Shown: positions 7,950 through 22,911 of the stretch, piece after piece
Numbering within the stretch: position 1 is the stretch's first letter
Layout of the letters: each line of letters starts with the position of its first letter
Assembly: GCA_015068065.1 (NCBI GenBank)
Contig: SVLE01000015.1
Coordinates: 1 to 32,783 of the forward strand
Length of the DNA: 32,783 bases
Origin: Oscillospiraceae bacterium
Lineage (GTDB): Bacteria; Bacillota; Clostridia; Oscillospirales; Oscillospiraceae
Direction: 5' to 3'
Notes under the pieces: model-generated
Told to the model about the DNA's origin: nothing
The model's input: only the letters and a program-made list of their open reading frames with translations
Databases searched by the model: none
Position numbers and translations under genes: made by a program

Positions 7950-8698
7950 ACACCTCCGTACCGGCGGGAGCGGCCCTGAAAGGCCGCAATCGCCCGGTGC
8001 AGTTCGTTTTTGTCAAAGTCAGGCCAGAGCACATCGGTAAAGTAAAACTCCGCGTAGGCGGACTGCCACAGCAGGAAGTTGGACAGGCGCAGCTCACCGC
8101 TGGGTCGAATAACAAGATCAGGGTCCGGTACGCCCTTGGAAAACAGATAGCCGCCCAGCTGTTCATCGCTCAGATGGTTTGGATCAGCCTTCCCCTCCAG
8201 ACAGTCCTGAGCATAGGCCTTCGCTGCACGCAGCAGCTCGTCCCGACCGCCGTAGTTCAAACAAATATTCACCTGACAGCCATCGTAGCGCTTGGAAATC
8301 TCGCGCGTCTGCTCGCAAAGCTCTCGCAGCTCCGGGGTCAGCGCGGACAGGTCCCCGAAAAACTCCATTTTGACCTTGTCCCGTTCCATCTGTTCAATGG
8401 CCTCCAGCAGGTACTTTTTCAATAGTCCCATGATGGCCCCCACCTCTTCCTGGGGACGCTTCCAGTTCTCGGTGGAAAAGGCATAGACCGTCAGATAGTC
8501 CAGACCGATCTCCTTGCAGTAGGTGGCAATAGTTCGGAACGTCTCCGCACCTGCGGCATGACCGGCAGTGCGGGGCAAACCGCGCTTTTTCGCCCAGCGG
8601 CCGTTACCGTCCATGATAATGGCAATATGGTGGGGCAGGTTTTGAAAATCCACCTGAGGCTCATTTTTGGCTTTTGATTTGAAAAGCGGCATATCCAT
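7946..8698 (-). CDS. uppS: isoprenyl transferase / undecaprenyl diphosphate synthase
   Basis: Cis-prenyltransferase that makes the C55 lipid carrier precursor for peptidoglycan and wall polymers. The 250-residue protein carries IAIIMDGNGRWAKKRG with the catalytic Asp at residue 30, a GHxxG-like motif (TAGHAAGAE), the YAFSTENWKRP segment, and the C-terminal RPSGELRLSNFLLWQSAYAE substrate-binding motif. The start could be ATG 8698 or ATG 8692 (two codons later); the GAAGG ribosome site is 4 bases from the first and 10 from the second, so 8692 is also credible. The stop overlaps the cdsA start. The gene lies 96 bases after frr with a hairpin in between. Confidence 0.96.
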   Translation of the reverse strand: MDMPLFKSKAKNEPQVDFQNLPHHIAIIMDGNGRWAKKRGLPRTAGHAAGAETFRTIATYCKEIGLDYLTVYAFSTENWKRPQEEVGAIMGLLKKYLLEAIEQMERDKVKMEFFGDLSALTPELRELCEQTREISKRYDGCQVNICLNYGGRDELLRAAKAYAQDCLEGKADPNHLSDEQLGGYLFSKGVPDPDLVIRPSGELRLSNFLLWQSAYAEFYFTDVLWPDFDKNELHRAIAAFQGRSRRYGGV

Positions 8699-14843: not shown

Positions 14844-16322
14844 TTAAAGGATAATACAAATCAGTCCGCCCGAGCCCTCGTTGATGATCCGCTGCAGAGT
14901 CTCGCGCAGCTTGCCCCGGGCATCGTCCGGCATACGCTTGAGCTTGGTATTCAGGTCCTCCCCTACAAGCTCATGGAACGATTTTCCGAAGATGTTGGAC
15001 TGCCAGATTTTTGCCGTATCGCCCTCAAACTCCCGGAGCAGATAGTTGATCATCTCCTCGCTCTGTTTTTCGGTCCCTACAATGGGCGAAACCTCTGTCT
15101 GAATATCGGCGCGGATCATGTGGATGGACGGGGCGCTAGCCTTGAGCCGTACGCCGTAGCGCCCACCCTGACGGACGATCTCCGGCTCCTCCAGAACCAG
15201 TGTTTCGGGGGATGGCACCACGATGCCGTAGCCGGTCTCCTCCACCTCTTTCAGGGCCTGTGCAACCTTGTCATGTTCTGCTTTCACCTGCGCCAGCTGT
15301 GTCAGCAGGCAGATCAGATCCCCATCGTCCCCGATCCGGAACCCGGACTGCTGGGACAGGGTTTGATAAAACAGCGTTCTGGGAAGTTCAAGCCTTGCCT
15401 GTGCGATCCCCGTACCCAGATCGATTCCACAGACCTGTGCCCCGCTTACCTGCTCGCACCGGGCAATGGAATCCAAGGCGCTGTGTACATCACGAATCCG
15501 CCGCAGCTCCTGCGCCCCTTCCCGGATCGCGCCATAAAGCTCAGATTTGATGGGATGCTCCTGTTCCAGCGCATTTACCCATTCCGGCAGGAACAGGTCC
15601 AGTTCCTTGATGGGAAATTCATATAGTACGTCCCGGATGATATCCGCGATCTCTTCCCTGCCGATTTCCAGACAGTTGACCGCCACGCAGGTCACATCAT
15701 ACTGCGCTTCCAGCTCCGCCCGGACCGCCTGTGCCCGCTCAGACCTAGGATAAGCGGAGTTCAGCACCACAACAAAGGGCTTCCCCAATTCCTTCAGTTC
15801 GGTGATGACCCGTTCCTCTGCCTGTATGTAGTCCTCTCTGGGGATATCTGTAATGGTGCCGTCGGTGGTGATCACGATTCCAATAGTGGAGTGCTCTGCA
15901 ATCACCTTTCGCGTCCCCAGCTCAGCCGCCTCGGTCATGGGAATTTCGTGGGAAAACCACGGTGTGGTGACCATTCGGGGTTCCTCACCCTCAAACTGGC
16001 CTACCGCTCCATCCACCATATATCCAACACAGTCGATCAGCCGTACCTGAAAGGCCGCTCCGCCCTCCATACTGACCTCTACAGCATCCTCAGGTACAAA
16101 CTTGGGTTCTGCGGTCATGATGGTCCGCCCAGACCCGCTCTGGGGCAGCTCATCTCTGGCTCGTTCCCGGCGGTATACATTCTCAATGTTCGGAATGACC
16201 AGCGTCTCCATGAACCGTTTAATAAAGGTCGATTTGCCCGTGCGCACCGGCCCAACGACCCCGATGTAGATGTCGCCCTCGGTCCGAAGCGCGATATCCT
16301 CGTAGATTTTACGTTCTTCCAC
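14844..16322 (-). CDS. spoIVA: stage IV sporulation protein A (SpoIVA), spore coat basement ATPase
   Basis: SpoIVA polymerises, using ATP, on the outer forespore membrane to form the platform for the spore coat. The open frame runs to 16649, but GTG at 16322 with AAGGAGG 7 bases upstream gives 492 residues, the length of the B. subtilis protein, and a matching N-terminus (EDIALRTEGDIYIGVVG). The Walker A motif GPVRTGKST places the key lysine at residue 30. The Walker B aspartate is at residue 97 (LIDCVGY). The region near the sensor threonine reads TIMTAEPKFVP with Thr70. The C-terminus ends GGLICIIL, as in the family, the part that contacts SpoVM. It is transcribed from its own sigma-E-type promoter and lies downstream of sipL and spoVM. 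Confidence 0.97.
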   Translation of the reverse strand: MEERKIYEDIALRTEGDIYIGVVGPVRTGKSTFIKRFMETLVIPNIENVYRRERARDELPQSGSGRTIMTAEPKFVPEDAVEVSMEGGAAFQVRLIDCVGYMVDGAVGQFEGEEPRMVTTPWFSHEIPMTEAAELGTRKVIAEHSTIGIVITTDGTITDIPREDYIQAEERVITELKELGKPFVVVLNSAYPRSERAQAVRAELEAQYDVTCVAVNCLEIGREEIADIIRDVLYEFPIKELDLFLPEWVNALEQEHPIKSELYGAIREGAQELRRIRDVHSALDSIARCEQVSGAQVCGIDLGTGIAQARLELPRTLFYQTLSQQSGFRIGDDGDLICLLTQLAQVKAEHDKVAQALKEVEETGYGIVVPSPETLVLEEPEIVRQGGRYGVRLKASAPSIHMIRADIQTEVSPIVGTEKQSEEMINYLLREFEGDTAKIWQSNIFGKSFHELVGEDLNTKLKRMPDDARGKLRETLQRIINEGSGGLICIIL

Positions 16323-16392: not shown

Positions 16393-16415
16393 CACCAGTC
16401 CCGGATGAAAAGACA

Positions 16416-16445
16416 GTGTGGGCCGCCCTTCCGGGCGGCCCACAC
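16416..16445 (-). terminator. intrinsic terminator between sipL and spoIVA
   Basis: A perfect 13-bp GC-rich stem (16416-16428 with 16433-16445) with a 4-base GGAA loop on the minus strand starts 4 bases after the sipL stop. It is followed by TGTCTTTTC. It should strongly limit read-through from sipL into spoIVA, so the two genes are separate transcription units despite being neighbours. Confidence 0.85.
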
Positions 16446-16449
16446 AAAT

Positions 16450-17973
16450 TCAGCGAATACTGGGTATGAGCAGCATCTGCCCACAGGGCAGGTTGTCGCT
16501 GTCCATACAGTTGGCTTTTTTGATCTGCTCGCAGGTTGTTCCACAGGTTTTTGCAATATCCCAGAGTTCCTCCCCCGGCGCTGCCATACGCAGCACGACG
16601 GATGGGTGGCCCGCTCCCTTGCTTTCCCGTGGTTCGCCCAGTTTTGCACTGTTGACCACGCCTACCTCCTGCGCCCGGGCAGTCAGGCAGCAGAATTCTA
16701 CATTGAAGCGCACTTCCACTCCCCCCACTCCGGGAACAGCAAACGCCTCACCGGGGCACTGACAGCGGCACACACATCGATCTCCATCAGCGATATCCAG
16801 GTGCCCGGATACTGTGAGTGGTCGGTGAACCGCCTCCAGTTGATCCTGCTCGTTCATGTAAAGCACACACACATTCAGTTCCGCGCTGACAGCAAGTTGA
16901 CCGCTTTCTCTGTTCTGCCGCACCTGACCGACAGAAACCGAGCAGTCCACGACATTTTTTACCGCAGACCCGGTCTCCAGCAGTTCCCGTACGCTTTGCG
17001 GGCGCATCGTATCTTCCACGATCTGAAGCACCGTATACTTTTCCTGCCCGATCTGCATATCGTAAGTGGTGCTGTATACGTCCTGCAACAGAATGATGTT
17101 GTGTCGGTCGCGCACCACCGCCTGACCAAGCAGCTCCAGTGTCACGTTTATCGTCCGTCCATCCTCGCCGGCAGCAGTGTATTCCACATCCGTAACACAC
17201 ATGGTCAGATCACACTGGGCATCGTCTCCGGTCTGAGTAATCTCCATGATTTGTGAAAAGGCCATAGGGCAACGCATGCTACATAGTTCGCCTTCGACCT
17301 GATACCGGATCTGAAGTACCGCCTCTCCTTTGAAAATCAGCTTGCTGCCGATCACTTTTGATTCCGTACAATAGGCATCCGCCTGTACCGACAGCACCTC
17401 AGCACGGCCCGATGGACCGACCGCCAAGCGCACCTCGTCATAGAATGTAAATTCCTTTTCTTCTACTGCCGCAGTAACGCAGGCAATATGCGTCTGTGTG
17501 CGTTGCTGAACGGCGCATTCCTGTCCACAGGTAATTCCGCTGCACAGCATCTGTTCCCGATTGGCGTACGCCTGCACACCGATCCCGATATCCGCTCGCA
17601 GCAACATCTTTCTGGGGTTGAGCGCTCGGGCGTCCAGACGTTTCAATGTTGGCACAAGTACACACCGCCCGTTGCTCTGAAGGCCGGGGACCTCAAGCTG
17701 GCCGTCAAAGGGGATCTGTACCGCCACCCTGCACAGGTCGTCGCCTCCCTCCGGCTGATACACGACCCAGCCCTTTACTGTGCCGGAAGCAGACACACCT
17801 CCATCGTACACATTTTTCCCGGACAGGCAGATTTGTCCGCCCGCATCCACGATCCTCAGAATATCAGGACAGGCGTCCGGCACGATCGTCTCCAGCGTTT
17901 CTTCCTGATATATCCCGGAGTCCAACAGCATTTCATATCCGTTGATATGTTCCCACTCAAGCTTCAGTTCCAT
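16450..17973 (-). CDS. sipL: SipL-like spore coat morphogenetic protein (DUF3794 plus LysM)
   Basis: A 507-residue protein with a long N-terminal region of DUF3794-type beta-rich repeats and a C-terminal LysM domain at about 460-507 (GEELWDIAKTCGTTCEQIKKA). This layout and length match SipL of Clostridioides difficile (about 520), which binds SpoIVA through its LysM domain and replaces SpoVID in clostridia. The N-terminus MELKLEWEHING is typical. ATG 17973 has AGAGG 7 bases upstream; a TTG at 17994 is less likely. It lies directly between spoVM and spoIVA, which strongly supports the assignment. DUF3794-LysM proteins are a wider family, so the identity rests partly on this context. Confidence 0.9.
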   Translation of the reverse strand: MELKLEWEHINGYEMLLDSGIYQEETLETIVPDACPDILRIVDAGGQICLSGKNVYDGGVSASGTVKGWVVYQPEGGDDLCRVAVQIPFDGQLEVPGLQSNGRCVLVPTLKRLDARALNPRKMLLRADIGIGVQAYANREQMLCSGITCGQECAVQQRTQTHIACVTAAVEEKEFTFYDEVRLAVGPSGRAEVLSVQADAYCTESKVIGSKLIFKGEAVLQIRYQVEGELCSMRCPMAFSQIMEITQTGDDAQCDLTMCVTDVEYTAAGEDGRTINVTLELLGQAVVRDRHNIILLQDVYSTTYDMQIGQEKYTVLQIVEDTMRPQSVRELLETGSAVKNVVDCSVSVGQVRQNRESGQLAVSAELNVCVLYMNEQDQLEAVHRPLTVSGHLDIADGDRCVCRCQCPGEAFAVPGVGGVEVRFNVEFCCLTARAQEVGVVNSAKLGEPRESKGAGHPSVVLRMAAPGEELWDIAKTCGTTCEQIKKANCMDSDNLPCGQMLLIPSIR

Positions 17974-18012
17974 GGAATGTCCTCTCCCTTGCAAATTGTT
18001 TGGCCTTGCAAA

Positions 18013-18041
18013 ACTATATGCACAAGGGTGGACAGCTATGT
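18013..18041 (-). promoter_or_regulatory. candidate sigma-E promoter of sipL
   Basis: On the minus strand CATATAGT (18013-18020) matches the sigma-E -10 consensus at seven of eight positions. ACATAGC lies 14 bases upstream (18035-18041), a weaker -35 (4 of 7) overlapping the spoVM stop codon. sipL is sigma-E-dependent in C. difficile. Co-transcription with spoVM is equally possible. Confidence 0.45.
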
Positions 18042-18112
18042 TACTTCATGTGAAAGATTTTGCGCAGGATCCCCCGCAGAAACTTTGGCGACCTGACCAC
18101 TACGATTCCCAT
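18041..18112 (-). CDS. spoVM: SpoVM, membrane-curvature-sensing sporulation peptide (23 residues)
   Basis: A 23-codon gene that standard ORF length filters miss. It starts at ATG 18112 with GGGGAGG 7 bases upstream and stops at TAA 18041. The core SPKFLRGILRKIF aligns without gaps with the amphipathic helix of B. subtilis SpoVM (26 residues): Pro9, Lys10, Phe11, Leu12, Gly14, Ile15 and Arg17 are all at identical positions, including the helix-kinking Pro9. SpoVM settles on the convex forespore membrane and recruits SpoIVA. In B. subtilis spoVM also lies just beyond the prpC-prkC-rsgA cluster. Here it sits 115 bases after rsgA and 67 bases before sipL. It lacks the last three residues of the Bacillus peptide. 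Confidence 0.93.
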   Translation of the reverse strand: MGIVVVRSPKFLRGILRKIFHMK

Positions 18113-18147
18113 GTTCCGCCCTCCCCTCTCCCATGCGAACTCATTTC

Positions 18148-18176
18148 AGTATATGTTTTCCCGCAGCACTTGACAC
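18148..18176 (-). promoter_or_regulatory. candidate sigma-E promoter of spoVM
   Basis: On the minus strand CATATACT (18148-18155) matches the sigma-E -10 at seven of eight positions. It would start transcription about 28 bases before the spoVM ATG. The -35 region (GTGTCAA at 14-base spacing, 18170-18176) is poor, so only the -10 is convincing. The upstream terminator makes a promoter here necessary. Confidence 0.4.
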
Positions 18177-18222
18177 AAAAAAGCGTCTGCTGCCCTTGTT
18201 TGAAGACAACAGACGCTTTTTC
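18177..18222 (-). terminator. terminator of the priA-rsgA operon
   Basis: A perfect 12-bp stem (18178-18189 with 18210-18221) with a 20-base loop begins 5 bases after the rsgA stop. On the minus strand it ends in a run of six T residues; the plus strand also has T residues, so it could work both ways. It separates the vegetative operon from the sporulation genes. Confidence 0.88.
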
Positions 18223-18226
18223 AACT

Positions 18227-19102
18227 TTATCGCTGCCAGTCTGGAATGGCCTTTGCCTGCTCGTACAGACGGACATAGCTTGCATGACGGGTCGGCTGTA
18301 TCTCACCCCGATCAAGTGCCTCCAGAACTGCGCATCCCTTTTCTTTCACGTGTGCACAGTCCAGAAACATACACTTATCCAGATAAGGAGTAAAGTCCGG
18401 GAAGCAGTGCTGAAGCTCCTCCTTGCGGCAAATATCCATTTTATCAGCTTCAAAGGAAGAAAACCCGGGCGTATCCGCAATCAGGGTATGCTCATCCAGT
18501 GCAAACAGTTCAACATGCCGGGTGGTATGGCGTCCGCGGCCCAGCTTCTCGCTCACATCTCCGGTCTCCAGAGAAAAACCGGGATGCAGCGCATTCAGGA
18601 TGCTGGATTTCCCAACGCCGGAATTACCTGTAAAGGCAGATACCTTTCCAGAAATCAGTGTTCTCAGCTGCTCCATACCTTTCCCCGTTTGGGCGCTGAC
18701 CCGCACAGTAGGAAAGCCTGCTGCCGTATAGATCCGGTACAGTTCATCCCCCGCATCCAGATCGCACTTGTTCACGCACACCACACACTGGCATGTTCGG
18801 CCCGCGGCAATGGCGATGATGCGATCGATCAGATAAGGGTCGGTCACAGGGGTGGCCTGAGAAACGATAATAACCAACTGGTCAATATTGGCCACGGCTG
18901 GACGGGTAAACTGATTTGTGCGTGGCAGAATCTCATCCAGCGCTCCGGTCATGTTTTCAAGGGGCGTAAAACGGACCCGATCCCCTACCAGTGGAGAAAG
19001 CTTGTCGTGCCTGAATTTCCCACGGGCACGGCAACGGTATATCTCTGCACCGGAATGAACATAGTAGAATCCGCTGAGGGCTTTTAAGATAATACCTTCC
19101 AT
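18227..19102 (-). CDS. rsgA: ribosome small-subunit-dependent GTPase A
   Basis: RsgA (YloQ/CpgA in Bacillus) is a circularly permuted GTPase that checks late 30S assembly. The 291-residue protein has an N-terminal OB fold (about 1-65). The GTPase motifs are in permuted order: VNKCDLD (G4) near 110, FTGNSGVGKSS (G1) near 157, then DTPGFSSF (G3) near 212. A C-terminal zinc region holds CRKEELQHCF and the C-x4-C-x-H type segment KCMFLDCAH. It begins 3 bases after the prkC stop and has no strong ribosome site, so translation is likely coupled. This is the conserved prpC-prkC-rsgA order. Confidence 0.96.
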   Translation of the reverse strand: MEGIILKALSGFYYVHSGAEIYRCRARGKFRHDKLSPLVGDRVRFTPLENMTGALDEILPRTNQFTRPAVANIDQLVIIVSQATPVTDPYLIDRIIAIAAGRTCQCVVCVNKCDLDAGDELYRIYTAAGFPTVRVSAQTGKGMEQLRTLISGKVSAFTGNSGVGKSSILNALHPGFSLETGDVSEKLGRGRHTTRHVELFALDEHTLIADTPGFSSFEADKMDICRKEELQHCFPDFTPYLDKCMFLDCAHVKEKGCAVLEALDRGEIQPTRHASYVRLYEQAKAIPDWQR

Positions 19103-19105
19103 AAA

Positions 19106-21109
19106 TCAGCTACCAAAATCCACAGTTTCTGTTTTGATCAAAGTCCCGTTAAAGAAGATCTGATAGGCTTTCACACCGGTCCCGGTCACAGTACAGGTCA
19201 CAGCGGCATCCAGCGTGGTATCCACAGAGCGGTTCAAAACCACCTTATCCCCGTCCCGCACCTCCACTTGAACAACAGATCCCTCGTCAGGCAGAGCAAT
19301 CTGGAATGAGCGGGTCTGTTCCTTGGGCCCAACGGTGGACGGGTCCGTTCCCTTGCTGACCTGAAGGTTGATTTTGGTACCCTGCGCCACTTCGGTGTAG
19401 GCTGCAACACTCTGGTCCACAACTACCCCCGCCTCATATTCACTGCTCCAGACATGGAACACTTCATCAATCACCAGATTTTGCAGGTCAGCCTTGTTGC
19501 GCGCCCATTCCTCTGTCTGACCGACGAAGAGAGGAACCGCCTCCAGCTTTTCAGCCGGACCTTTGCTAACGATCAGCTGGACCTTATCACCGGGACGCAT
19601 CACAGTCCCCTCCAGCGGAGTATGGGAAATGATATGATTGGAGGGGATCTCCTCATGGGTCTCGTACTCCGGAATGGGAACCTTCAGGCCCATATTCTGC
19701 AGCTCCACAAGGGCCTTAATGTATTCCCACCCAACAACGCTGGGCATGCTGATAATTTCGGGTCCGGCGCTTACAGTGACAGAAATCTCCGTCTTGGGAT
19801 CCTTTGTGGTGCTGTCTCCCTCGGGCTGCTGTCTCAGGATCGTCCCTGCAGGTTCTTCGCTGGTAATTTCAGACGAGACGGTAATGGTAAACTCTTTCAA
19901 CAGTTCTTTGTTCTCAACAACCTGTTCATAGACCATTCCGCTCAGATCCGGAATGACATAATCGGGCGTGGGCGCCAGCAGCGGCTGAATGAACGAAGAG
20001 TAGAAAAAGTACATAATGCCTACCGTAAAGGCCAAAATCGCCAGAACGGCCACAAAAATCGGCCAGTTGGGCCCCTGCTCCTCGTAGTCATCGTAGTCAT
20101 CCCTTTTTTCAGTTCTGCGCCGATTTTCCCGCTCCGCAGTCCGGTTAGGCTGTTGGGTCACAGGTTTGCGCTGGCCGCGCAGCGCACCAATGGAGATCGG
20201 CTGCGTACGCTCCTGACCGGAAACATCCGTTTCTTCCATAATTTTCAAGTCATTCGCGTTATATTCAAAGTTAATGTTGGGGTTTTTGCGGAATTCCTCC
20301 AAATCGGCCAGCATTGCGTCCGCTGACTCATACCGATCCTCCACTTTGGGCGCCATGGCCTTCATAGTAATGGCCTCCAGAGCCTCGGGGATGTCCGCAT
20401 TCAGCTCTCTGGGTGAAAGAGGAATGCTGTTGATGTGTTGAATGGCAACGGAAACCGGTGAATCCCCCTCAAAGGGCAGTCGTCCGGTGGTCATCTCGTA
20501 AAGCACCACACCGGCAGAATACAGGTCGGACCGGGCATCAATATGGCTGCCTCTGGCCTGTTCCGGGGAAATGTAGTGCACAGAACCAAGCGTTTCCTGA
20601 GTCAGCGTACTGTGCCCTGCGGAAATCAGGCGGGCAATACCAAAATCCGTCACCTTGACGCTTCCGTCCCTAAGCACCATAACGTTGTGCGGCTTGATAT
20701 CCCGGTGAATGATACCGCGGCTGTGGGCATGCCCCAGCGCCTTGACGATCTGGGTGATGAAGTGCAGCGCCTCGCGCCAGTTCAGCTTATTCCCCTTCTT
20801 CTGCATGTACTGCTTCAGGGAAATGCCGTCGATCAGCTCCATCACGATGTATTCCAGCTCCGATGAGCGGCTCACATCATACACGGCCATGATGTTTGGG
20901 TGGGACAGCATGGCGACTGCGTGGGACTCATCATGGAAGCGGCGGCGGAAATCGGAATCCTGAGACAGGTCATCCCGCAGGATCTTGACCGCCACAAGAC
21001 GGTTGAGGCGATGACAGCGGGCCTTGTAGACCTTTGCCATGCCGCCCACACCGATCAGTTCCAGAATTTCATATCGGTTGTCAAGCATTTTTCCAATATA
21101 TTGATCCAT
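19106..21109 (-). CDS. prkC: PASTA-domain serine/threonine protein kinase PrkC
   Basis: A 667-residue membrane kinase that senses muropeptides or lipid II and phosphorylates growth and translation targets. The kinase domain (about 1-270) has the glycine loop IGVGGMAKVYKA, VAVKIL with the catalytic lysine, HRDIKPHN, VTDFGIAR and the SPEQARG version of the APE motif. A basic juxtamembrane stretch leads to one membrane helix at about 347-370. Three extracellular PASTA repeats begin near residues 382, 450 and 521. The C-terminal 75 residues form an extra beta-rich segment like that of some clostridial homologues. ATG 21109 has GGGAGG 9 bases upstream. It is 17 bases after prpC, its phosphatase partner. 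Confidence 0.97.
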   Translation of the reverse strand: MDQYIGKMLDNRYEILELIGVGGMAKVYKARCHRLNRLVAVKILRDDLSQDSDFRRRFHDESHAVAMLSHPNIMAVYDVSRSSELEYIVMELIDGISLKQYMQKKGNKLNWREALHFITQIVKALGHAHSRGIIHRDIKPHNVMVLRDGSVKVTDFGIARLISAGHSTLTQETLGSVHYISPEQARGSHIDARSDLYSAGVVLYEMTTGRLPFEGDSPVSVAIQHINSIPLSPRELNADIPEALEAITMKAMAPKVEDRYESADAMLADLEEFRKNPNINFEYNANDLKIMEETDVSGQERTQPISIGALRGQRKPVTQQPNRTAERENRRRTEKRDDYDDYEEQGPNWPIFVAVLAILAFTVGIMYFFYSSFIQPLLAPTPDYVIPDLSGMVYEQVVENKELLKEFTITVSSEITSEEPAGTILRQQPEGDSTTKDPKTEISVTVSAGPEIISMPSVVGWEYIKALVELQNMGLKVPIPEYETHEEIPSNHIISHTPLEGTVMRPGDKVQLIVSKGPAEKLEAVPLFVGQTEEWARNKADLQNLVIDEVFHVWSSEYEAGVVVDQSVAAYTEVAQGTKINLQVSKGTDPSTVGPKEQTRSFQIALPDEGSVVQVEVRDGDKVVLNRSVDTTLDAAVTCTVTGTGVKAYQIFFNGTLIKTETVDFGS

Positions 21110-21126
21110 TACAGTTCACCTCCCCC

Positions 21127-21852
21127 TCAGCATCGAATCAGAGCGACCGTAACGTTGTCGGGCGCTCCCCGTTTCAGGGCAATATCCAACAGCCGCTGAC
21201 AGCACTCATCTGCCGGGCCACCGTGTATCACTTCGTAGAGCATTTCCTGATCGGACACAATGTTGCTCAACCCGTCGCTGCAAAGCAGGAAGAAATCCCC
21301 CTGTTTTGCCTCCTGCACGAACAGATCGGCGTGCAGGTCGGGTTCTGCACCCAAGGCCCGGGTAATCAGGTTCTTATGCGGATGCGTTCTGGCCTGCTCG
21401 GGCGTAAGGTCTCCACGCAGCATCAGATCCTCCACCAGAGAATGATCCCGGGTGACCCGGGTAATATTCTCCTGGGTAATGTGGTAGGCACGGCTGTCAC
21501 CCTCATTCAGAATGACTGCTCGCTCACCGTCCAAAAGTACCACTACCATGGTAGTTCCCATGCCAAAGCACGCCTCGTCCGTGGCAGAGCGGCGGTGGAC
21601 CACTTCGTTTGCATAGGCCGCAGCAGATTCCAGCATCTGCTCGCTGGCCACCTGCTTATCATTCCAAAGCTGCCCGAACAGTTCCAAAAAGGTCTCTACC
21701 GCCAGCGTACTGGCAATATTTCCCGCCCGTGCGCCGCCCATGCCGTCACATACCACAGCCAGCAGCTTATCTTCCGCCAGCGTACGAACTGCGAAGGCAT
21801 CCTGATTCTCTTCCCGCACAACACCGCGGTGGGTGATTCCCCATATATCCAT
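21127..21852 (-). CDS. prpC: PP2C-type serine/threonine phosphatase PrpC (Stp1)
   Basis: A 241-residue metal-dependent phosphatase that opposes PrkC. It has the PPM-family aspartate motifs: RGVVREENQDAF at the N-terminus, VCDGMGGARAGNIAS, NEGDSRAYHI, TRDHSLVEDL and LLCSDGLSNIV, which give the binuclear metal site. Length is typical. It lies 36 bases after rlmN and 17 bases before prkC in the same operon. Confidence 0.97.
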   Translation of the reverse strand: MDIWGITHRGVVREENQDAFAVRTLAEDKLLAVVCDGMGGARAGNIASTLAVETFLELFGQLWNDKQVASEQMLESAAAYANEVVHRRSATDEACFGMGTTMVVVLLDGERAVILNEGDSRAYHITQENITRVTRDHSLVEDLMLRGDLTPEQARTHPHKNLITRALGAEPDLHADLFVQEAKQGDFFLLCSDGLSNIVSDQEMLYEVIHGGPADECCQRLLDIALKRGAPDNVTVALIRC

Positions 21853-21888
21853 GAGACATCAACCTCTTTTCCTGTTATCTGCTGCAGC

Positions 21889-22911
21889 TCAGCTCTGCTG
21901 CATGGCCTTGCGGCGCAGCTGGCCGCAGGACGCGTCAATATCGCTGCCCAGTCTGCGCCGGACGGTAACCGTGATTCCCTGCTCCTCCAGCCGGCGCTGA
22001 AATTCCTTCACTCTTCGGCTTGGCTTCAGAGGACTCTCCTCCACGTGGTTGAGCGGGATCAGATTGACATGGGCAGACATACCCCGAATGCGTTTTGCAA
22101 GCAGATCTGCCTGTGCATCCGAGTCATTCACTCCATCGATCATGGCATATTCAAAGGAAATACGTCTGCCTGTCTCTCTAAAATAGTCGTGACAAGCCTG
22201 CATCAGCCGCTCCACCCCCACGCTGCGGTTGACCGGCATGATTTTGGAGCGGGTCTCATCATCGGGGGCATGCAGTGACACGGACAGGGTCAATTGTAAC
22301 CGATGCCGGGCCAGCTTGTCAATTTGGTCGGCCAGACCGCAGGTAGACAGAGAGATATGACGCATACCGATATTTAATCCGTCTGGGGAATTGACCAGTT
22401 CCAGAAACCGCAGCACTGTGTCCATATTGTCAAGAGGCTCACCAATACCCATAAGCACGATATTGGAGATAGGCTCGCCGCTGTCCAGCTGGGTAAACAG
22501 CACCTGATCCAGCATCTCGGATGGGCGCAAATCGCGTACCTTACCGCCCAGCGTGGATGCACAGAAAGCGCACCCCATACGGCACCCTACCTGACAGGAG
22601 ATGCACACGGTATTACCATGCTTGTACCGCATCAGCACGGTCTCAATACAGTTCCCGTCCGGCAGACGCCACAGGTACTTGATGGTACCGTCAATGGCGG
22701 ATACCTGCTTTCGCTCCACCTTAGGCACATCGATGTAACAACAGCCTGCCAGCTTTTCCCGAAGGGACTTGGACAGGTTGCTCATCTCATCAAAGGACTG
22801 CGCGCCCTTATGCAGCCAGCAGAACACCTGCTTTGCACGGAAGGCCGGCTCACCCAGTTCTTTGAAAAAGGCGGTCATTTCCGCCTGAGTCATGGATTTG
22901 ATGTCAGTCAT
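21889..22911 (-). CDS. rlmN: dual-specificity 23S rRNA (A2503)/tRNA (A37) C2-methyltransferase
   Basis: A 340-residue radical SAM methylase acting on A2503 of 23S rRNA and on some tRNAs. The cluster motif is CRMGCAFC near residue 108-115, preceded by CISCQVG. SNIVLMGIGEPLDN and the SLHAPDDETRSKIMP region are diagnostic. The second catalytic cysteine is in DIDASCGQLR near the C-terminus. The ATG at 22911 overlaps the TGA of the rsmB C-terminal reading frame (ATGA) and has AGGAGG upstream. Confidence 0.97.
   Translation of the reverse strand: MTDIKSMTQAEMTAFFKELGEPAFRAKQVFCWLHKGAQSFDEMSNLSKSLREKLAGCCYIDVPKVERKQVSAIDGTIKYLWRLPDGNCIETVLMRYKHGNTVCISCQVGCRMGCAFCASTLGGKVRDLRPSEMLDQVLFTQLDSGEPISNIVLMGIGEPLDNMDTVLRFLELVNSPDGLNIGMRHISLSTCGLADQIDKLARHRLQLTLSVSLHAPDDETRSKIMPVNRSVGVERLMQACHDYFRETGRRISFEYAMIDGVNDSDAQADLLAKRIRGMSAHVNLIPLNHVEESPLKPSRRVKEFQRRLEEQGITVTVRRRLGSDIDASCGQLRRKAMQQS

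Follow-up and report, generated by a model that had tools for sequence, protein, structure and literature searches.

The minus-strand open reading frame at 18041..18112 of the window (the whole stretch of 32,783 nucleotides analyzed here) is very probably the spoVM gene of this genome, which would act in the formation of the spore coat basement as outlined below. The frame consists of 23 codons followed by TAA, with the ATG at 18112-18110 and the stop codon at 18043-18041, encodes MGIVVVRSPKFLRGILRKIFHMK, and is preceded, 7 bases before the ATG, by the Shine-Dalgarno sequence GGGGAGG (18120..18126, minus strand). The original prediction had proposed a 23-codon minus-strand frame with this ribosome site between rsgA and sipL, and the coordinates, strand, neighbors and spacing are all borne out, as is the identification of the product as SpoVM. 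Pro9, Gly14 and Arg17 indeed align with the B. subtilis peptide (26 aa), which is of the same length class and also shares Ile15 and the K-F-L run after Pro9; overall, the two peptides are 35% identical, with Gly2, Val6 and Arg13 in the window in place of Lys2, Ile6 and Gly13. We counted as SpoVM any small peptide, roughly 22-31 residues long, that contains Pro9 and whose C-terminal half is basic and amphipathic; the window peptide fits this description in its 23 residues, Pro9, and the basic residues Arg13, Arg17 and Lys18.

The claim that automatic annotation would miss this gene finds support in both of the model libraries tried. In the HMM search that had been suggested as a check, the NCBIfam model NF033436 (SpoVM_broad) covered the whole peptide with 30.0 bits and an E-value of 3.7e-7, which is 1 bit short of the curated cut-off of 31 bits required for membership, and the Pfam model PF08183, which gives 61 bits for the peptide of B. 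subtilis, gave no match at all. Among ten clostridial peptides tested (that of the window and nine others), a single one, 65% identical to the window peptide, passed the NF033436 cut-off, and none was matched by PF08183. Because the two curated models miss 9 and 10, respectively, of these ten peptides, that is, most of those tested, the failure to recognize spoVM is a fault of the models, not of the peptide; we treat the NF033436 cut-off as an annotation threshold rather than a biological feature, and PF08183 seems to be narrow. Under-annotation as such is not new: spoVM has been described as “rarely recognized in genome annotation”, with 70 newly identified spoVM genes given in Table 2 of the respective paper (Galperin et al. 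2012, PMC3533761), the portions of which considered here do not name the lineage of the window. A catalogue of small proteins (PMC11364881) names SpoVM in its reference list only. The window spoVM is a further member of a known family and, with the under-annotation published already in 2012, ordinary as a finding.

A sequence search of 99 genomes produced matches at E <= 0.01 in 72, namely, the genome of the window itself, 55 of the 60 other genomes of the same genus, and 16 of the 38 other genomes of the order. One more copy, in G052, was recovered with the family profile and has a SipL domain after it, bringing the count to 56 of the 60 other same-genus genomes. In the four remaining ones (58-81% complete), neither spoVM nor a SipL domain match was found, except that one of them (G002) contains a 261-residue frame in which SpoVM is matched weakly and in part (E 0.07); given that the SipL domain is missing as well, the locus is probably unassembled in these four genomes. 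In every genus assembly where sipL was seen, spoVM was found too. Loss of the reading frame in close relatives and a better spoVM elsewhere in the genome had been named in advance as grounds for rejection; as these counts show, the frame is kept in the relatives, and a family search found no second copy in the 87.6% complete draft genome. A PF08183 search of the same genome is uninformative in this respect, this model being blind even to the window spoVM.

The substitutions among the 45 distinct sequences from the 56 genus copies indicate that selection on this frame is purifying. Over the first 20 codons, with the start codon excluded, pS is 0.452 and pN is 0.089, yielding a pN/pS of 0.196, compared with 1.48 (+1) and 3.50 (+2) in the shifted forward frames of the same DNA; given that the sequences are related, these ratios describe the data and do not amount to a formal test. 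The three reverse-strand frames gave 1.56, 0.33 and 3.02, with a low value expected where third positions coincide. Variation is greatest at the third codon positions of spoVM, and stop codons occur in 0 of the 45 sequences in frame, against 18 and 2 in the other forward frames. The frame is short, with only 23 codons, and scores below both curated cut-offs, as a chance open reading frame in an intergenic region might; such an origin has, however, next to no probability in view of the conservation, the frame-specific selection, the ribosome site and the neighborhood. The NF033436 E-value, the presence of the frame in 56 of the 60 genomes, the pN/pS, and the GGAGG located within 25 bases 5' of spoVM in 56 of the 56 genus copies are our reasons for considering it a real gene.

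Upstream of spoVM, on the same strand, lies the gene for the ribosome biogenesis GTPase RsgA (18227..19102; PF03193, 171.6 bits; PF16745; TIGR00157, 210.7 bits), followed at its 3' side by an intrinsic terminator hairpin (18177..18222, minus strand; 20-bp stem, including its T-run). The fold of 18160-18226, which includes this terminator-like hairpin, has an energy of -28.6 kcal/mol and a z of -4.56. An Rfam scan of 16400-19200 gave one microRNA match, on the rsgA terminator, which at 25 bits against a gathering threshold of 72 was dismissed as chance. Downstream, also on the minus strand, are sipL, encoding a 507-aa protein with SPOCS and LysM domains (16450..17973; PF12673, 94.8 bits; PF01476, 34.1 bits; Shine-Dalgarno sequence at 17988-17981), for which 16450-17961, without the first 4 residues, served as the domain query, and spoIVA (14844..16322; 492 aa if the start is GTG; TIGR02836, 708.8 bits, and three Pfam SpoIVA domains). 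Judged by eye from the open reading frames, the genes before rsgA (19106-22911, minus strand) appear to encode a Ser/Thr kinase with PASTA domains, a phosphatase of the PP2C type and RlmN, in the order in which these genes occur near spoVM in B. subtilis. The B. subtilis spoVM gene order is presumably unlike that of the window, where spoVM adjoins sipL and spoIVA. A literature search on spoVM together with prkC and rpmB returned no match.

The arrangement of spoVM, sipL and spoIVA in one cluster extends beyond the window. In all 56 genus copies, similarity to sipL starts 79-190 bp after the spoVM stop codon, on the same strand; spoIVA is located downstream of spoVM in 40 of the 56 fetched stretches, some of which end early and some of which have several genes intervening before spoIVA, and rsgA is located upstream, at a distance of 97-1367 bp, in 24 of the 56. 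A SpoIVA search of named genomes, confined to the best 80 of 526 relatives and thus leaning to close kin, showed a detectable sipL in 38 of the 80 loci and a SpoVM match in 19. The order spoVM-sipL-spoIVA on one strand is present in 17 of these 80 loci, including those of Intestinimonas butyriciproducens and Flavonifractor sp. An306, with 70-896 bp between spoVM and sipL; in locus L124, spoVM and sipL lie on opposite strands, and in L182, a distance of 9 kb separates spoVM from spoIVA, and sipL was not detected. The three-gene cluster is a simple route to spoVM in other Oscillospiraceae, and the window spoVM supplies the missing member of the coat-basement set (SpoVM, SipL, SpoIVA) in a lineage of the gut for which mostly draft genomes are available.

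We examined the regions 5' of spoVM and sipL for the -10 and -35 elements of the sigma-E consensus. A putative sigma-E-like -10 box of spoVM, CATATACT, is located at 18148..18155 (minus strand), with a weak candidate -35 element, GTCA, recognized by eye at 18171-18174 (minus strand). The putative sigma-E promoter of sipL, also read by eye (18013..18040, minus strand), consists of CATA at 18040-18037, 16 bases, and CATATAGT at 18020-18013. The motif CATANNNT occurs upstream of spoVM in 54 of the 56 genus copies, compared with a mean of 3.9 and a maximum of 9 in shuffled sequences, and upstream of sipL in all 56 (shuffle mean 3.6, maximum 10), in 200 runs in which only single-base content was kept. 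TCATA, with at most one mismatch, is found 14-17 bases before the sipL -10 box in 46 of the 56 copies, with a spacer of 16 in all 46 (shuffle maximum 2; the -35 box of the window's own sipL, read by eye, lies outside the scored region), against 19 of the 56 at the same spacing before spoVM. This difference fits a sigma-E promoter of sipL that would be stronger than that of spoVM, as would agree with C. difficile, in which the expression of spoIVA and sipL is 50- to 100-fold above that of spoVM (PMC5607322).

An inverted repeat at 17989-18011, between the sipL -10 box and the ribosome site, is present also in the 56 sipL leaders of the genus (L031-L102). Its arms co-vary: the mean perfect stem among the 49 distinct leaders, which are related sequences, is 5.55 bp, compared with 3.90 (maximum 4.27) in leaders shuffled with only single-base content kept and 4.69 (maximum 5.04) when arms were swapped (200 runs each). 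The window's own copy is weak (TTGCAA/TTGCAA, p 0.06). When the 5' part of the repeat, CATATAGTGTCAACAAAG, was sought in 6 genomes, G007 and G009 each gave a single exact match, located at sipL; all further matches had 3 mismatches and were about as many as with the reversed control. The concerted changes of the arms and the widely varying distance between them speak against a fixed DNA-binding operator, and an RNA hairpin is likewise uncertain because part of the 5' arm would precede the expected transcription start. A different short hairpin, resembling GCCG...CGGC, just 3' of the spoVM -10 box, is present in 34 of the 56 genus copies and absent from the window.

The constant position of the frame 79-190 bp before sipL in all 56 genus copies and the co-varying repeat that intervenes before the ribosome site of sipL could also be expected if it encoded a regulatory leader peptide for sipL, SpoVM-like by resemblance and acting in cis, with no job of its own for the peptide. 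We consider this very improbable because the residues are conserved as well as the frame (Pro9 in 56 of the 56 copies), sipL has its own putative promoter box after the spoVM stop codon, and in L124 and L182, spoVM is, respectively, on the other strand than sipL and remote from spoIVA with sipL undetected.

Together with the conserved frame under purifying selection, the conserved neighborhood and the sigma-E-like boxes, the genome contains a sigma-E gene (373.6 bits, with a cut-off of 348.6). In the proposed mechanism, the mother cell would transcribe spoVM during sporulation from its own sigma-E promoter, with the terminator separating this transcription from that of rsgA. The peptide would adopt the form of a short amphipathic helix, its N-terminus remaining flexible up to Pro9. 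Inserted in the outer forespore membrane, which is convex, it would anchor the SpoIVA ATPase, encoded two genes downstream; SpoIVA would then polymerize into the coat basement, and SipL, the product of the gene in between, would link SpoIVA to the rest of the coat. Membrane binding, curvature preference and SpoIVA binding of the window peptide are inferred here by analogy with published findings for B. subtilis and C. difficile. The closest parallel is the clostridial SpoVM of C. difficile, with the same partners, SpoIVA and SipL: according to Ribis et al. 2017 (PMC5607322), it binds SpoIVA and is under the control of sigma-E; the window has sigma-E-like boxes.

The points that we counted against this assignment are the 1 bit lacking in the NF033436 score, the silence of PF08183, Gly2, the weak -35 element of spoVM, the lack of a SpoVM match in 118 of 293 class genomes, and the missing Spo0A domain. 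The C-terminal domain of Spo0A was not found in the 87.6% complete draft genome of the window (G000), where the six TIGR02875 matches were all rejected as far under the cut-off and confined to the receiver half. This domain was matched in 37 of the 37 same-genus relatives searched, one of which (G017) has 18 matches; in another (G013, 81% complete), the best match reaches only 2.5e-27, and the true gene may be missing. The missing Spo0A is most simply explained by a gap in the assembly, with loss as the alternative; sporulation of this very strain is therefore unproven. In the same draft, a sigma-factor match at G000:C66:1498-2253 is split into two pieces (L110, L112), one of which has an in-frame TAA.

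The identity of the gene is separate from its importance, which is uncertain, SpoVM being largely dispensable in C. difficile (PMC5607322). Conceivably, although we regard this as unlikely, the window gene encodes a true, translated SpoVM that is a dispensable accessory, with SipL and SpoIVA being sufficient in clostridia, which lack the CmpA checkpoint; this possibility shares the identification of the gene with our preferred explanation and differs from it on importance. In addition to the C. difficile data, including the absence of CmpA from clostridia stated in the cited parts of that paper, it is favored by the distribution of SpoVM: no SpoVM was seen in the fetched stretch, in some cases a short one, at 61 of the 80 named SpoIVA loci, and a class-wide search at E <= 0.1 matched 175 of 293 genomes and left 118 without a match, so that, at this sensitivity, SpoVM cannot count as a universal SpoIVA partner. 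Within the genus, however, the low pN/pS and the presence of spoVM in every assembly where sipL was seen argue against this possibility.

The suggestion that curvature sensing may be altered by Gly2, Arg13 and the short length of the peptide is not supported by comparison with its relatives (alignment A1 comprises 24 of the 44 distinct peptides, from which L096 and L097, where residue 1 is not a start codon, were left out, and that of B. subtilis). Among the 56 genus copies, Pro9 and Arg13 are each present in 56, Gly14 in 55, Gly2 in 54 and Arg17 in 53. In a class-wide sample of 60 out of the 69 best-listed matches from the 293 class genomes, position 13 is most commonly Arg (26, with Gly in 20), position 2 is occupied by Lys in 39 and never by Gly, and position 9 is Pro in all 60; with the other nine matches (Pro9 in 8, Ser9 in G190), Pro9 is found in 68 of 69, a count biased upward by a query built from Pro9 sequences only. 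Thus, Pro9 is kept, Arg13 is ordinary, and the peptides of the fetched relatives have lengths of 22-31. Gly2, near fixed in the genus yet absent from the class sample, is a mark of this genus.

The mutational data available from B. subtilis bear on the same positions. The K2A form of SpoVM is defective and activates the CmpA checkpoint, absent from clostridia, and I6A breaks the binding of SpoIVA, which is rescued by G486V in SpoIVA (PMC5607322). The window has Val6 in SpoVM, and its SpoIVA keeps the equivalent of Gly486, numbered according to the 492-residue model; in C. difficile, the residue is Asn491 (PMC5607322). Pro9 is the only completely conserved residue in the alignment of Ribis et al. 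(PMC5607322), the sole match in a literature search on SpoVM with Pro9; according to the cited section of a review (PMC12004969), P9A causes the loss of both localization and curvature discrimination, and proline restored at positions 7-13 has been used as a probe of the flexible N-terminus.

The by-products of this analysis, namely, the three-gene cluster, the co-varying repeat, and SpoVM-like genes without Pro9, are more interesting than the window gene itself. The Pro9-less genes are found in other clostridial families, one of them of the same order. In the named genome L177, a form with Ser9 (8129-8209) lies in the order rsgA, Ser9 form, sipL, spoIVA; with its peptide as the query, 17 of 391 class genomes were matched at E <= 0.01, and Pro9 is missing in 13 of these 17 peptides. 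Position 9 is Ser in L216, L217, L219, L221, L222 and L224, and, combined with Pro8, in L225, L230 and L231; Thr in L226 and, combined with Pro8, in L227; His in L220; and Lys in L229. Pro9 is kept in L218, L223, L228 and L232. Searches with the window's proteins detected no rsgA, sipL or spoIVA in the stretches of L221, L222, L224, L225, L227 and L229. In L216, L217 and L226, sipL and then spoIVA directly follow the Pro9-less gene; in L219, both are nearby in the opposite orientation; in L230, rsgA is upstream and spoIVA 3.1 kb downstream; and in L220 and L231, rsgA is upstream. We tentatively suggest, and consider it a minority possibility, that Pro9, held to be essential for curvature sensing, may be dispensable in nature and that, taken together with the Gly2 form, SpoVM might take a route different from that in B. 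subtilis. If so, SpoVM would find the forespore, or work with SpoIVA and SipL, unlike in B. subtilis. The Pro9-less relatives represent a natural test of the accepted mechanism of curvature sensing.
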